DNA from: an uncultured Clostridia bacterium
GTDB taxonomy: Bacteria > Bacillota > Clostridia > Christensenellales > UBA1242
Assembly: GCA_944383405.1 (NCBI GenBank)
Contig: CALWPL010000001.1
Location: forward strand, 1-64,000
Length of the DNA stretch: 64,000 nucleotides
Reading direction: 5' to 3'
The notes under the pieces were generated by a model. It ran no database searches. It was not told the DNA's origin and was given only the letters and a program-made list of their open reading frames with translations. Shown here in pieces: positions 1,526-61,219 of this stretch (the stretch's first letter is position 1; every line of letters begins with the position of its first letter). The position numbers and the translations under genes are program-made.

Positions 1526-1561
1526 TTGCAAAAATTTAAAAATTGTGTTAATATAACAGTA
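1526..1561 (+). promoter_or_regulatory. Promoter of sua5, predicted leaderless
   Basis: TTGCAA (1526-1531), a 17-nt spacer, then TAATAT (1549-1554) with an extended TG at 1546-1547. Exactly six bases separate the -10 from the ATG, so the predicted +1 is the A of the start codon at 1561. No Shine-Dalgarno sequence precedes the ATG. Confidence 0.6.
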
Positions 1562-2595
1562 TGAAAACGGAATTATTAAAACCAACAAAAGAAAATTTAA
1601 TCTTAGCAAGCAACTTATTAAAAAAAGGAGAAGTTATAGGAGTCCCAACAGAAACCGTATACGGACTTGCAGGAGACTGCTCAAATAGTAATGCAATAAA
1701 AAAGATATTTATTGCAAAAGGTAGACCAAATGACAATCCTTTAATAGTACATATTTCAAGCATGAAAATGTTAAATGATATTGTATCTTTTGTTCCAGAC
1801 GATGCAAAGAAATTAGCAAAAGTTTTCTGGCCAGGGCCTTTAACAATTATTATGCCAAAAGGGAAAAAAGTGTGTGATGAGAGTTGTGCAGGACTGGATA
1901 CGATAGGCGTCAGAATGCCAGCAAACGAGATAGCGAGAAAAATTATAGAACTTTCAAATACCCCATTTTCTGCTCCAAGCGCCAATATTAGCGGCAAACC
2001 AAGTCCTACAACTGCAAAAGATGTTTACAATGATATGAATGGGAAAATACCACTTATTATTGATGGTGGCGAATGTCAAGCAGGGGTTGAATCTACTGTC
2101 ATTTCCTTAATTGGAGATACTCCAACTATACTGCGCCCAGGAGTAGTAACTAAAAATGACATAGAAAAAGTTTTGCAAAAACAAGTTTTAATTGCAAAAG
2201 GAGTGCTAGAAGAACTCCCCCAAAATTCAAAAGTAATTTCTCCTGGCATGAAATATAAACACTATTCTCCAAATGCAGAGGTATATTTAATTAAAGGAAA
2301 TTTTAAAAATTTTTGTAAATATGTAAAACTTCATATACAAGAAGGTACTTACGCCATGGTTTTTAATGGCGAAGAAAAAAAATGTCCTCTACCTTCTCTG
2401 CCATATGGCATAAAAAATGACCCATCTTCACAAGCCCATAATCTTTTTTCAACACTTAGAAAACTAGATGAATGTAGAGCAAAAATAATTTTTGTTAGAT
2501 GTCCAAAAACGGATGGTGTTGCTCTTGCCGTTTTTAATAGACTTATTAGATCTGCTGGTTTTAAAATAATAAATGCCGATAAAAAAGATGCTTGA
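1561..2595 (+). CDS. sua5: L-threonylcarbamoyladenylate synthase, Sua5 type
   Basis: Makes threonylcarbamoyl-AMP from threonine, bicarbonate and ATP, the first step of t6A37 synthesis in ANN-decoding tRNAs. The N-terminal YrdC domain (about residues 8-195) has PTETVYGL at 29-36, KGRP at 53-56 and the SAPSANISG strand. SPGMKYKHYSP marks the linker to a C-terminal Sua5 domain, giving 344 aa, the normal long-form length. An in-frame stop at 1549-1551 excludes any upstream start, and no ribosome site precedes the ATG, so translation is probably leaderless. It is convergent with the collagen-like gene and shares a terminator with it. tcdA at 25396 acts later in the same modification pathway (ct6A). 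Confidence 0.93.
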   Translation: MKTELLKPTKENLILASNLLKKGEVIGVPTETVYGLAGDCSNSNAIKKIFIAKGRPNDNPLIVHISSMKMLNDIVSFVPDDAKKLAKVFWPGPLTIIMPKGKKVCDESCAGLDTIGVRMPANEIARKIIELSNTPFSAPSANISGKPSPTTAKDVYNDMNGKIPLIIDGGECQAGVESTVISLIGDTPTILRPGVVTKNDIEKVLQKQVLIAKGVLEELPQNSKVISPGMKYKHYSPNAEVYLIKGNFKNFCKYVKLHIQEGTYAMVFNGEEKKCPLPSLPYGIKNDPSSQAHNLFSTLRKLDECRAKIIFVRCPKTDGVALAVFNRLIRSAGFKIINADKKDA

Positions 2596-2630: not shown

Positions 2631-4700
<2,070 letters not shown>

Positions 4701-7819: not shown

Positions 7820-8662
7820 TTACTCCTCGTTTTGTTTTGTATTATACCAATTTGGATATGTCTTAAAATCTTTAAAACTCAAATAACTAAGGTCCTTTTG
7901 TTCTATCAATTTAAACTTAATTTCAAAGCAAAATAACTTTTGATTTTTTTCTTTAAACTTTTTATTATATTCTTTCTTTCCGTATTTCCTATCGCCTAAA
8001 ATTGCATATCCCAAATGCGCTAAATGAGCCCTTATTTGATGTGTTTTACCAGTAACTAATTCGCACTCAACTATTGAAGTATCATGTCCCATATAAATGG
8101 TATTAAACTTTGTTATTATTTCTTGGCAACCTTTCTTAAAGCTATCATAAATATAAACCTGAGATTTTTTTGCATCTTTAAATAAAAAGGCCTTCTTTAT
8201 TTGATTTTTAAAATCAATTCTTCCTACAACTTCACAAAGGTATCTTTTTATTACTAAGTTTTCTTTAAAAATTTGTTTTAATGGGTCAAGCAGTTCTTTT
8301 TTCTTTGACATTAAAATTAAACCTTCTGTATTTCTATCAAGCCTATGCACAGCAAAAAGGTTTAATTTTCCTTCTAGCCCCATTTTTCCACAACTCTCTA
8401 TCTCCTTTGGCTTTACAAGCACAACAATATTCTCATCTTCATAAATATATTCAAACTTTGTATTGTCATTTATTTTTTTGTTTAAATAGCACTCTAACTT
8501 ATCCCCAAAATTTAAAGTCTTGTCTTCACGCACCCTTGTCCCATTTATTTTTATGTCTTTATTTTTAAGCATAGTTTTTATATCAATAAATGAAAACCCA
8601 TTTTGACTCAAAAATTCACTAAGTTTAACACTTGATAAAACATCAAATAAATATTTGTTCAT
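7820..8662 (-). CDS. RluA-family 23S/tRNA pseudouridine synthase
   Basis: Isomerises specific uridines in RNA. An N-terminal S4 RNA-binding domain (about 12-60, LSEFLSQNGFSFIDIK) precedes the catalytic domain. The catalytic Asp is D109 in HRLDRNTEGL (106-115). The downstream GKTHQIRAHLAHLGYAILGD segment is a family hallmark. At 280 aa it is of the RluC/RluD/YlyB type; the target base cannot be read from sequence. No ribosome site precedes the ATG; a strong promoter places +1 at the start codon. It follows ispH by 30 nt. Confidence 0.9.
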   Translation of the reverse strand: MNKYLFDVLSSVKLSEFLSQNGFSFIDIKTMLKNKDIKINGTRVREDKTLNFGDKLECYLNKKINDNTKFEYIYEDENIVVLVKPKEIESCGKMGLEGKLNLFAVHRLDRNTEGLILMSKKKELLDPLKQIFKENLVIKRYLCEVVGRIDFKNQIKKAFLFKDAKKSQVYIYDSFKKGCQEIITKFNTIYMGHDTSIVECELVTGKTHQIRAHLAHLGYAILGDRKYGKKEYNKKFKEKNQKLFCFEIKFKLIEQKDLSYLSFKDFKTYPNWYNTKQNEE

Positions 8663-44960: not shown

Positions 44961-46076
44961 TTACATTTGAAATTCAATATTATTTTTTTCTATAGATTTA
45001 TCCTTTATGTGATTTAGTGCTACTTCTAGTGCCATTTCAGAATTACATTTAATATTAGGTTCAGTATAAAACTCACTAAAATCTTCTTGTCCTTTTTCAT
45101 TAACTGGGCACTCTATTGGAAATACAAGACTCACACTCTCTAACTTTTTATCGCCTTTAATAAAATTATTAGAAGAAGTTAGTTCGCATTTAAACGGAGT
45201 AAGCCCAAACCCCTCGCCCTTTGTAGTTTCTCCCACTAATGTTGCAAAATTGGTCTTCTTAAAAATTCTTGCAAAGGAATCTGCTGTAGAATAACACACT
45301 CTGTCAACAAGTAAAAATTTATTATACTCCTTGCCTGTTCCTTTTTTTATAATTATATCTGAAAAACTATCTACTTGGTTACTAGTGGTATTTTGATAAC
45401 TAGTATTTTCAATAATATCTTTATTTGCAAAAGAAGAAAAAAGTGTTGAGTATTCATCAGTTCCTCCACCATTTCCCCTAATATCAAAAATAACATTTGA
45501 AAAATTTTCTGTCTTTTCCAAACTCTTTATTTCTTCAATAATTTTTTTATCATCTATTAGACAGTTCTTTTTAAAACTCCTTATTTTAATGATAAGCGTT
45601 TTGTCATCTATCATTTTATAGGTAAGATTTTTATCTATATTTTTCTCGTTTTCACTCTGTAATTTTTCTTTTTTATCAATATTTTTGTCTGAGTTTTGAA
45701 CGATTGAATTTAATTCTTCATTTTGTGAGTTTGTTGTTTTCACATCTAATTTTACATGCCCAATATTAATATTTATAGGTTTTACAATTTTTTCACTAAT
45801 GAATTTTATAAAACTAACTTCATCTAGATTTGAAATTTCTTTTAGTTTTGCACTTAAATCATTTAAAGTCGTCTTTGTAAAAAATTCGTTATTTTTAAAA
45901 GCAAGTGTTCTTTCTTGAGTTTGTTTTAAGAGTTGATAAATAAACTCAAGTTTTTGTTCATATGTTTTTAGGCTATTATAGCATTCTTGAATTTCCTTAT
46001 TTTGCATATATCTTTGCATTTGTAAATGTTTTATTTTCATATCTTTTCTTTCCATTGTTATTTTGTTATAACCCAT
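44961..46076 (-). CDS. S41-family peptidase without signal peptide
   Basis: A 371-aa protein. Residues about 1-110 are helical and likely coiled, about 110-145 are a Lys/Asn/Gln-rich linker, and about 150-350 form an S41 (C-terminal processing protease/IRBP-like) core. Supporting motifs are NVIFDIRGNGGGTDEY, the probable Ser nucleophile in CYSTADSFA, and VGETTKGEGFG. No PDZ domain and no signal or anchor are visible, so it seems cytoplasmic, unusual for the family. The longest start at 46076 directly abuts the pyk stop; ATGs at 46055 and 46040 are alternatives because no site is strong. Confidence 0.75.
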   Translation of the reverse strand: MGYNKITMERKDMKIKHLQMQRYMQNKEIQECYNSLKTYEQKLEFIYQLLKQTQERTLAFKNNEFFTKTTLNDLSAKLKEISNLDEVSFIKFISEKIVKPININIGHVKLDVKTTNSQNEELNSIVQNSDKNIDKKEKLQSENEKNIDKNLTYKMIDDKTLIIKIRSFKKNCLIDDKKIIEEIKSLEKTENFSNVIFDIRGNGGGTDEYSTLFSSFANKDIIENTSYQNTTSNQVDSFSDIIIKKGTGKEYNKFLLVDRVCYSTADSFARIFKKTNFATLVGETTKGEGFGLTPFKCELTSSNNFIKGDKKLESVSLVFPIECPVNEKGQEDFSEFYTEPNIKCNSEMALEVALNHIKDKSIEKNNIEFQM

Positions 46077-50752: not shown

Positions 50753-51304
50753 TTATTCGTGTATTGAATATTTACATCCACAATAATTTTGTCTGTATAA
50801 GTTGTATTCCTTTGAAATTTTTATGCTATTTAAATATCCATCTTTTTTCTTAAAATCAGCAACTAAAAATTCTATATTATATTTTTTTGATAAATCTACT
50901 CCAATTTGATTAATTATTTGAGCATTTTTATGCGGACTAACAGTGAGAGTCGTTGCAAAAATATCATATCCATTTTCTTTTGCATACTTAGCAGTTTTGT
51001 CAAGCCTCAAAGAAAAACATATATTGCATCTTTCTTCGCCTTCTTTATTATTTTCAAAACCCTTATATGCCCTATAAAATAAATCATTATCTTCATACTT
51101 TCCATCTATTATTACAACATGTAAATTTGCATCTTTAACATATCTTTTTTGCTCATTAAATCTATGAAGATACTCTTCCAAAGGATATATGTTTGGATTA
51201 TAATAAAATATGGTTAAATCATATTCATTTTTTAACCTATCAATAACTGCCGTTGAACAAGGCCCACAACAACTATGAAGAAGCATTTTCTTTTTATTTT
51301 CCAT
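50753..51304 (-). CDS. queH: Epoxyqueuosine reductase QueH
   Basis: Reduces epoxyqueuosine to queuosine in tRNA (non-B12 enzyme that replaces QueG). Iron-sulfur/zinc Cys residues are visible in HSCCGPCS (C12, C13, C16), ERCNICFSLRL and YCGCKYS. FATTLTVSPHKN is also conserved in the family. Length 183 aa is normal. There is no Shine-Dalgarno sequence; a near-consensus promoter places transcription start at the ATG, so translation is probably leaderless. Confidence 0.93.
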   Translation of the reverse strand: MENKKKMLLHSCCGPCSTAVIDRLKNEYDLTIFYYNPNIYPLEEYLHRFNEQKRYVKDANLHVVIIDGKYEDNDLFYRAYKGFENNKEGEERCNICFSLRLDKTAKYAKENGYDIFATTLTVSPHKNAQIINQIGVDLSKKYNIEFLVADFKKKDGYLNSIKISKEYNLYRQNYCGCKYSIHE

Positions 51305-51339
51305 AACAAAATTATATGCTTCTTTTTTGTTTATTTCAA
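51304..51339 (-). promoter_or_regulatory. Promoter of queH, predicted leaderless
   Basis: On the minus strand, TTGAAA (51339-51334), 17-nt spacer, TATAAT (51316-51311), then six bases (TTTGTT) to the ATG at 51304. The predicted +1 is the A of the start codon. Confidence 0.7.
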
Positions 51340-51602
51340 GTAAATTTCTTAAATAAATTTATATTTTTTTATTTATTTACAATAGTTTTTTACTTAAAAA
51401 AATCGAAAAAAATTTTTAAACTTTTTCAATTTTTTATTTGTATAATAAAACCCATAAATAATGAGATGAAATTACTTAAATTGTCTAACTTTTAGGGTTC
51501 ACTTTATACGCTAGTGGATTTTTATTTATTATTTAATCATTTAACTTAATTACAATTAATAAAATTTTAAACAATTTTATTTGTTTTACTTTATTATATT
51601 CT
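51340..51602. other. AT-rich gap between queH and gtrB
   Basis: No gene or strong hairpin. A plus-strand TATAAT-like element near 51441 and a less AT-rich patch at 51482-51522 (containing TAGGGTTCACTTTATACGC) stand out slightly, but only a nine-residue frame follows. A small RNA cannot be excluded. Confidence 0.3.
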
Positions 51603-52550
51603 CTAATTTAATTCCTTATCAATAAAGAATTTAGGGCGATGTTTACTTTCAATATATGTTTTACCAACATATAATCCAACAATTCCAAGACCTAACAATA
51701 TAATCCCTACTCCAAATAGTACAGTAAAAATTAATGGCATAAACATTGAAATGTATTTTAGTAAATAAAAAACAAGAGTCGTTACAAAACCAGCAAAACT
51801 TATTAAACTAAAAATCAACCCAAATACAAATAACAAATTTAATGGTTTACATGAAAATGAAGTTATTCCATTTACAGCAAGACTAATCATCTTTTTTAAT
51901 GGATATTTGCTCTCGCCTGCAAGTCGTTTCCCCCTTTCATATTCAACAGTAGCATTCTTATAACCCAGTTGTGGAATAATGCCACGAAGATAAATATTAT
52001 CTTCTTCGTACTGTATAAGGGCTTCAACTGCTCTTTTGCTCATAAGCCTAAAATCAGCATGATTAAACACAGTTTCTACTCCGTTTTTCTTCATAAGTTT
52101 ATAAAAGGTTTCTGCTGTAAATCGCTTAAAAAAGGAATCTTTTTTTCTACTACTTCTCACTCCATATACAATATCACAATCATTATCAATATATTCTTTA
52201 ACCATTTTATCTATTGCATTTATATCATCTTGTAAATCTGCATCAATAGAAATAGTTAAATCTGCATATTTAATTGCCGTTTTAAGTCCAGCAAAAACAG
52301 CAATTTGATGCCCTTTATTTCTAGACAACTTTAAACCAGAAAAGATAGAATCTTCACTATGTAACTTTTCAATTATAGCCCAGGTTTTATCTTTTGAGCC
52401 ATCATCAACAAATAAAACTTTGCTTTTAGCGTCAATATAACCTTCATCTATAAGATTATTTAATTTTTGCTTTAACTCCTTTGCTGTTATCTCTAAAACT
52501 TCTTCTTCATTATAACAAGGAACAACAATATACAATATATTATTTTTCAT
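51603..52550 (-). CDS. GtrB-like polyprenyl-phosphate glycosyltransferase
   Basis: A GT2 enzyme (DPM1/GtrB group) that moves a sugar from a nucleotide donor to undecaprenyl phosphate. VVPCYNEEEVL, VDDGSKDKTW, LSRNKGHQIAVFAG and the metal motif DADLQDD are in order. Two C-terminal transmembrane helices (about 228-255 and 262-295) anchor it. I start at the ATG at 52550 (315 aa), with GGGGAAAAG upstream inside gtrA; a TTG at 52553 is adjacent. It overlaps gtrA and acts with it in glycosylating cell-surface polymers. Confidence 0.9.
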   Translation of the reverse strand: MKNNILYIVVPCYNEEEVLEITAKELKQKLNNLIDEGYIDAKSKVLFVDDGSKDKTWAIIEKLHSEDSIFSGLKLSRNKGHQIAVFAGLKTAIKYADLTISIDADLQDDINAIDKMVKEYIDNDCDIVYGVRSSRKKDSFFKRFTAETFYKLMKKNGVETVFNHADFRLMSKRAVEALIQYEEDNIYLRGIIPQLGYKNATVEYERGKRLAGESKYPLKKMISLAVNGITSFSCKPLNLLFVFGLIFSLISFAGFVTTLVFYLLKYISMFMPLIFTVLFGVGIILLGLGIVGLYVGKTYIESKHRPKFFIDKELN

Positions 52551-60118: not shown

Positions 60119-61219
60119 TTATACTTTTTTTTGTTTAGTTATCACTGCTTGCCTTACATTAAATATAGCACTATTTTGACCTAGTTTTCTTGAAAATTTA
60201 GTAGTAGTTAATATTGTTTGATAATTTTCAATTTGTTTTAAAAAATTTTTACATCTTTTTTGATCAAGTTCACTCAAAACATCATCCAATAATAAAATAG
60301 GCTTTTCTCCTGTTTGCTTTTCAAATAAACAAAGTTCAGCAATTTTAAGAGATAAGGTTGCAAGTCTTTGTTGCCCTTGTGAGCCAAAATTCCTTATATC
60401 AATATTATTTATTTTAATTTCTAAATCATCTCTGTGAGGTCCAACCGATGTAAAACCTAATTCATAATCACTTTTTAATTTATCTTTATAAGATTTATAT
60501 AATTTTTCTCTTATTTGTTCAATTGATTTTAAATTTATACCCTGATAATTAATTGTTAATTCTTCTTCATTACTAGTTATGTTTGAATGAGTTTCCTTTG
60601 CAGGAATTTTAATACTATCTATAAAACTAAGTCTACAATAAATAATTTTACTTGCAATATCCGCAAGTTGAATATCCCAAAGGTCAATTGTCTCAAATAA
60701 ATTCTCAAAAGTTTTAGTTTGTTTTAATAATTTATTTCTTTCATTTAAAACTTTTTCATACCGACAAAGAAGATAAAAATAATTTTTATTTAGTTGACTA
60801 ATATCAATATCCATGAATCTACGCCTATAAGCAGGTCCATCTTTTACTAATCCTATTTCATCAGGTGCAAAATAGACAACAGGCATTTCACCTATTAAAT
60901 CTCCTATTTTTCTAATATTTATACCATTTATTTTTATTGATTTATTAGAATCTTTTCTTAAATATAATTCTATTTCTTCTTCAAAATATTCTTTTTTAAC
61001 AATAATTGTAACTTTTGAATTATTTTCATTCCATTTAATCAATTCTTTTTCTTTATTAGTTTTTGGAGATTTTCCAATACTTGATAAATAAATACTTTCT
61101 AAAAAATTTGTTTTTCCCTGTGCATTACTACCAACAAATACATTTAATTTTGGTTCAAGAAAAACATTACATTCTTTATAATTTCTAAAATTTTCTAGTT
61201 TAACATTTTTAATATACAT
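60119..61219 (-). CDS. recF: DNA recombination/repair protein RecF
   Basis: SMC-like ATPase acting in gap repair with RecO and RecR. LENFRNY at the start, Walker A GSNAQGKTN, signature FGSQGQQRLATLSLKIAE and Walker B LLLDDVLSELD are present. Length 366 aa. No ribosome site precedes the ATG; an extended -10 (TGTTAATAT) lies 7 nt upstream. It diverges from dnaA instead of following dnaN, which is the usual arrangement. Confidence 0.96.
   Translation of the reverse strand: MYIKNVKLENFRNYKECNVFLEPKLNVFVGSNAQGKTNFLESIYLSSIGKSPKTNKEKELIKWNENNSKVTIIVKKEYFEEEIELYLRKDSNKSIKINGINIRKIGDLIGEMPVVYFAPDEIGLVKDGPAYRRRFMDIDISQLNKNYFYLLCRYEKVLNERNKLLKQTKTFENLFETIDLWDIQLADIASKIIYCRLSFIDSIKIPAKETHSNITSNEEELTINYQGINLKSIEQIREKLYKSYKDKLKSDYELGFTSVGPHRDDLEIKINNIDIRNFGSQGQQRLATLSLKIAELCLFEKQTGEKPILLLDDVLSELDQKRCKNFLKQIENYQTILTTTKFSRKLGQNSAIFNVRQAVITKQKKV

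Follow-up and report, generated by a model that had tools for sequence, protein, structure and literature searches.

The queH gene of an uncultured Clostridia bacterium is preceded by a consensus-like promoter whose −10 box ends only six bases before the ATG, which raises the question of whether the queH mRNA carries any 5′ leader. We analysed the locus in a window of 64,000 nucleotides (the whole stretch of DNA under study), compared queH with its orthologs, and asked how common the same layout is in the genome and which genes share it.

Promoter and start codon of queH

queH occupies positions 50753..51304 on the minus strand, begins with ATG, and encodes an epoxyqueuosine reductase of 183 aa. 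The Pfam profile PF02677 matches residues 7-182 of the product (E=1e-66), a whole-length member of the QueH family, and the protein itself is ordinary. Read on the minus strand from 51339 to 51302, the upstream region consists of TTGAAA, 17 nt, TATAAT, TTTGTT, and ATG. The −35 box (51334..51339) has TTGAAA-like counterparts in many orthologs of the genus, and together with the −10 box (51311..51316), which is conserved among orthologs, it gives 11/12 matches in a promoter scan. No TGn extension stands ahead of the −10 box of queH, which is therefore not of the extended type; the gene has a good −35 box instead. No Shine-Dalgarno (SD) sequence was found within 20 nt upstream of the start (SD score 0), so the geometry proposed in the earlier note, TTGAAA-17-TATAAT-6-ATG without an SD, is borne out by the sequence. 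The final T of a −10 box is conventionally placed at −7, and with a six-base spacer (TTTGTT, 51305..51310) the predicted +1 therefore falls on the A of the ATG (51302..51304). The length of this spacer equals the genome-wide peak described below, and its end is predicted to abut the transcription start. In the predicted fold of the queH mRNA, the 5′-terminal 12 nt are unpaired.

The gene preceding queH is a co-directional glycosyltransferase gene. At its 3′ end, ~290 nt from queH, lies a second sigma-70-like site, TTGATA-18-TATAAT (51593..51622, minus strand; 11/12 match), and no terminator-like stem was found in the gap between this site and queH. A leadered queH transcript may therefore coexist, and the site at 51622-51593 may give rise to such a transcript or to a short RNA of its own. 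The co-directional gene, the near-consensus upstream site, and the terminator-free gap also favor a different account, in which queH is read mainly from this site or from the glycosyltransferase gene, with a long SD-less leader, and the near box is minor or fortuitous; the orthologs discussed below bear on this directly.

The gap between the two genes measures 298 nt and has room for a short RNA. An Rfam scan of the stretch ahead of queH gave no match near the gathering score, and a structured regulatory RNA at this position, such as a preQ1 riboswitch, was rejected on that ground. The gap also contains GTGAACCCTAAAAGTTAGACA (window 51482-51502, minus strand), which resembles an IS3-type terminal repeat. 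Neither the window nor the sampled stretches contain it a second time, and as a single copy it is perhaps an IS relic.

Conservation among queH orthologs

queH is present in 11 of the 12 genomes of the genus, and ten of these 11 orthologs have TA[TC]AAT 6-8 nt before the ATG and no clear SD. Only L034 departs from this: there, 35 nt separate queH from a co-directional gene in front of it, and the SD-like sequence AAGGCGAG is present. The near −10 box is conserved while the flanking sequence diverges, which argues against transcription mainly from further upstream. In four orthologs (L039, L041, L042, and L043) the gene nearest upstream is divergent, so the promoter must sit within the short gap, and the spacing peak holds genome-wide. 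We therefore consider it improbable that the upstream site or the preceding gene is the main source of queH transcripts, and favor the near box as the promoter. Outside the genus, a box at spacing 7-9 precedes queH in L082, L102, L103, L112, L113, and L117; other queH genes of the family outside the genus use an SD, and for some of these another gene apparently lies a short way upstream.

Orthologs also bear on the position of the start codon. Codon 7 of queH (51286) is ATG in this genome and in several relatives, and if translation began there the mRNA would have an ordinary leader of ~18 nt. However, L038, L040, L042, and L043 have another codon at this position, no SD stands ahead of the internal ATG, and the fixed spacing refers to the first ATG. 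An internal start was rejected because the ATG is not conserved, and we regard it as very improbable; the first ATG is taken as the start in what follows.

Genome-wide spacing of −10 boxes

The genome comprises 1.33 Mb with 28.6% GC, and in sequence this rich in A+T the TATAAT near the queH start might be a chance match. We sampled 864 kb (65%) of the genome, with 603 simple ORF calls, and counted as a box any TA...T with at least 5/6 matches to TATAAT ahead of the first ATG. Such matches do arise from base composition, at a mean of ~4.5 for each of the other spacings among the 257 SD-less genes. At spacing 6, however, 20/257 of these genes had a box (Poisson p ~2e-6 after correction), and exact TATAAT was found at this spacing in 9 genes versus a mean of 0.8 at other spacings, while only 2/331 genes with an SD had a box there. 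In stretches from four further genomes of this genus, 11/142 SD-less genes had a spacing-6 box, against ~2.5 expected, as did 1/149 SD genes. The genome-wide excess for which the earlier note had proposed to look is thus present, and in its strict form it corresponds to ~3% of genes. A peak at a single spacing, its near-absence in SD genes, and conservation through genus and family leave a chance match at queH hardly credible, and that explanation was rejected on the spacing peak. A further statement of the note, that most other genes have AGGAGG-type sites, holds roughly: an SD match of 5 nt or longer was scored for 339/603 ORFs, and one of 4 nt for 119.

Orthologs in the related genomes also served to train a motif score, and a gene that scored at least 4 and had no SD was called leaderless. 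This called 36/601 genes (6%). The trained −10 motif is an extended −10, with T at 71% and G at 61% at the TGn positions. Leaderless calls by this score were made for 33/412 genes with their own transcription unit versus 3/189 inside operons, and the predicted class consists mostly of single genes or operon-first genes, often with an extended TGn −10. By eye, a few of the plain-consensus leaderless calls (for example, ribosomal protein L6 and RimP) are internal starts and represent noise.

The sampled stretches of this 1.33 Mb genome also contain very long ORFs, on G000 C1 from ~196660 and on C3 from ~52386; their products, of ~9170, 7700, and 5640 aa, start with signal-like sequences and are probably giant surface proteins. 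In the window, a protein with collagen-like GPTGPTGP repeats is encoded at 2631-3989 (minus strand).

Other genes with the same layout

The earlier note had ascribed the queH geometry also to sua5 and an RluA-type gene. An RluA-family pseudouridine synthase gene (7820..8662, minus strand) has it as TTGATA-16-TATAAT-6-ATG. For sua5/tsaC (1561..2595, plus strand; TIGR00057, E=2e-60), with TGTTAATAT-6-ATG, the spacing of 6 stands and the TATAAT box does not, the −10 being TAATAT with TG in front. A placement of sua5 at 44961 was rejected, the gene there being a peptidase S41 gene. A RecF-like gene (60119..61219, minus strand) has TGTTAATAT 7 nt before its ATG and falls in the same predicted leaderless class.

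Within the genus, the layout was found at truA in 12/12 genomes (in three of them the box is weaker or the ATG lies slightly upstream), at dusB in 11/11 readable cases (three by weaker boxes), at rsmD in at least 9/11 readable cases when some weaker −10 variants are counted, and at sua5 in 5/8 orthologs. The RluA-family gene and recN have it in roughly half of their genus orthologs, with SD-like sites in most of the others. Across 13 other genera of the family, dusB keeps the layout in 22/26 loci, and the spacing there is almost invariably 6 nt; truA outside the genus has it in only 12/26 loci, with several SD cases.

Further genes with similar layouts were noted. rlmD (L179:5969-7231(+); G000:C3:165969) reads TGCTAATAT-6-ATG. 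In mnmE and miaB (L044:4126-5463(+) and L183:2888-4210(-)) TATAAT lies 9 nt ahead of the ATG, which suggests leaders of ~3 nt. In a two-gene unit (L181:1620-2753 and L181:432-1607, minus strand), the first gene encodes a NifS-type cysteine desulfurase and has a leaderless-type promoter; the second is thiI, which is involved in tRNA thiolation.

Functional classes of the predicted leaderless genes

The suggestion that RNA-modification genes share leaderless expression was examined with 26 such genes of the sample, picked by eye and for the most part confirmed by curated models. Genes for tRNA and rRNA modification are usually filed in COG J. By the motif score, whose training set included relatives' orthologs of some of the RNA-modification families it tested, 8/26 RNA-modification genes were leaderless versus 28/575 others (p=5e-5), and among own-unit genes 8/11 versus 25/401 (p=1e-7). 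The window had generated the hypothesis, and figures from outside it are hence reported separately: 5/8 own-unit RNA-modification genes versus 23/370 others (p=7.5e-5, motif score). An untrained consensus gave 5/26 versus 27/577 over all genes (p=0.009; outside the window p=0.11) and, for own transcription units, p=0.0025 (outside the window p=0.04). The enrichment is thus clear by the motif score and weaker by the plain consensus.

Specificity for RNA modification did not hold. DNA-replication-and-repair genes were also strongly enriched (7/13 versus 26/399 leaderless, p=1.4e-5; motif score, own units), in a test that is post hoc because the class (PolIV, RnhA, and others) was grouped after the list had been seen. 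Repair-class genes with the layout include those for AddB, TatD, DinB, RecN, RecJ, an OGG-type glycosylase, and RecF. The excess among RNA-modification genes is real, yet it is shared by DNA-repair genes, and the label ‘RNA modification’ is therefore too narrow. A fairer one is own-promoter housekeeping enzymes of information processing, which are probably of low abundance, as we assume. Tentatively, RNA-modification and DNA-repair enzymes of low abundance might, in this Clostridia family, share a conserved regime of leaderless expression that selection maintains because initiation at a 5′-terminal AUG would make their translation respond in common, for instance to stress or to an altered state of the ribosomes; the layout of dusB is kept in at least 14 genera.

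Discussion

The queH mRNA is very probably leaderless and transcribed from its own SigA-type promoter with the −10 box six bases before the ATG, a reading strongly supported by ortholog conservation and by the genome-wide spacing excess. Transcription driven by this housekeeping promoter would begin on the A of the start codon, since the −10 box ends six bases before it, and the ribosome would then recognise the 5′-terminal AUG without an SD. Initiation would probably be by 70S ribosomes, a route discussed for leaderless mRNAs in PMC10568206. The layout may be beneficial, for instance, by keeping expression low and steady or by making the gene immune to transcription reading through from upstream. 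The class to which queH is predicted to belong makes up roughly 3-6% of the genes of this Clostridia lineage.

For an uncultured Clostridia family, these results make a case for leaderless translation that is built on sequence alone and spans species, and dusB, truA, rsmD, queH, rlmD, recN, and recJ form a conserved set for asking why genes stay leaderless. Should selection underlie the functional skew, the very enzymes that modify tRNA and rRNA would owe their own synthesis to a mode of initiation that does without the anti-SD.

Leaderless genes of the TA-led type lack an SD, and their Pribnow box stands a short, constant distance ahead of the start codon (Zheng et al. 2011, PMC3160421). In Firmicutes they are a minority, with a mean of 4.2% in genomes that have them and TAtAAT as the low-GC form, and the cases concentrate in Lactobacillales and Mycoplasma (PMC3160421). 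queH shares the box distance, the lack of an SD, and the minority status with these genes, whereas its host belongs to an uncultured Clostridia family with small genomes. Zheng et al. found an over-representation of information categories, COG A among them, in leaderless genes, and an under-representation of COG J (PMC3160421); here, in contrast, tRNA/rRNA modification, a subset of COG J, is enriched. It is well supported that queH is a further predicted example of the known TA-led leaderless genes, with an unusual and interesting functional skew.

Leaderless transcripts have been measured in other Clostridia, whereas those described here are predicted. The passages concerned give ~2-3% of transcripts in solventogenic clostridia (PMC9045289), 15 leaderless genes in C. 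difficile (PMC7438776), and, for C. acetobutylicum, 212 that are monocistronic or operon-first (set PMC9045289, PMC7438776, PMC4533764); these same passages report no link to RNA modification. The statement of the earlier note that leaderless mRNAs are uncommon in Firmicutes agrees with the literature, as far as these passages and the survey of Zheng et al. go (PMC3160421, PMC9045289, PMC7438776), and the scale found here fits the known leaderless usage of Firmicutes.
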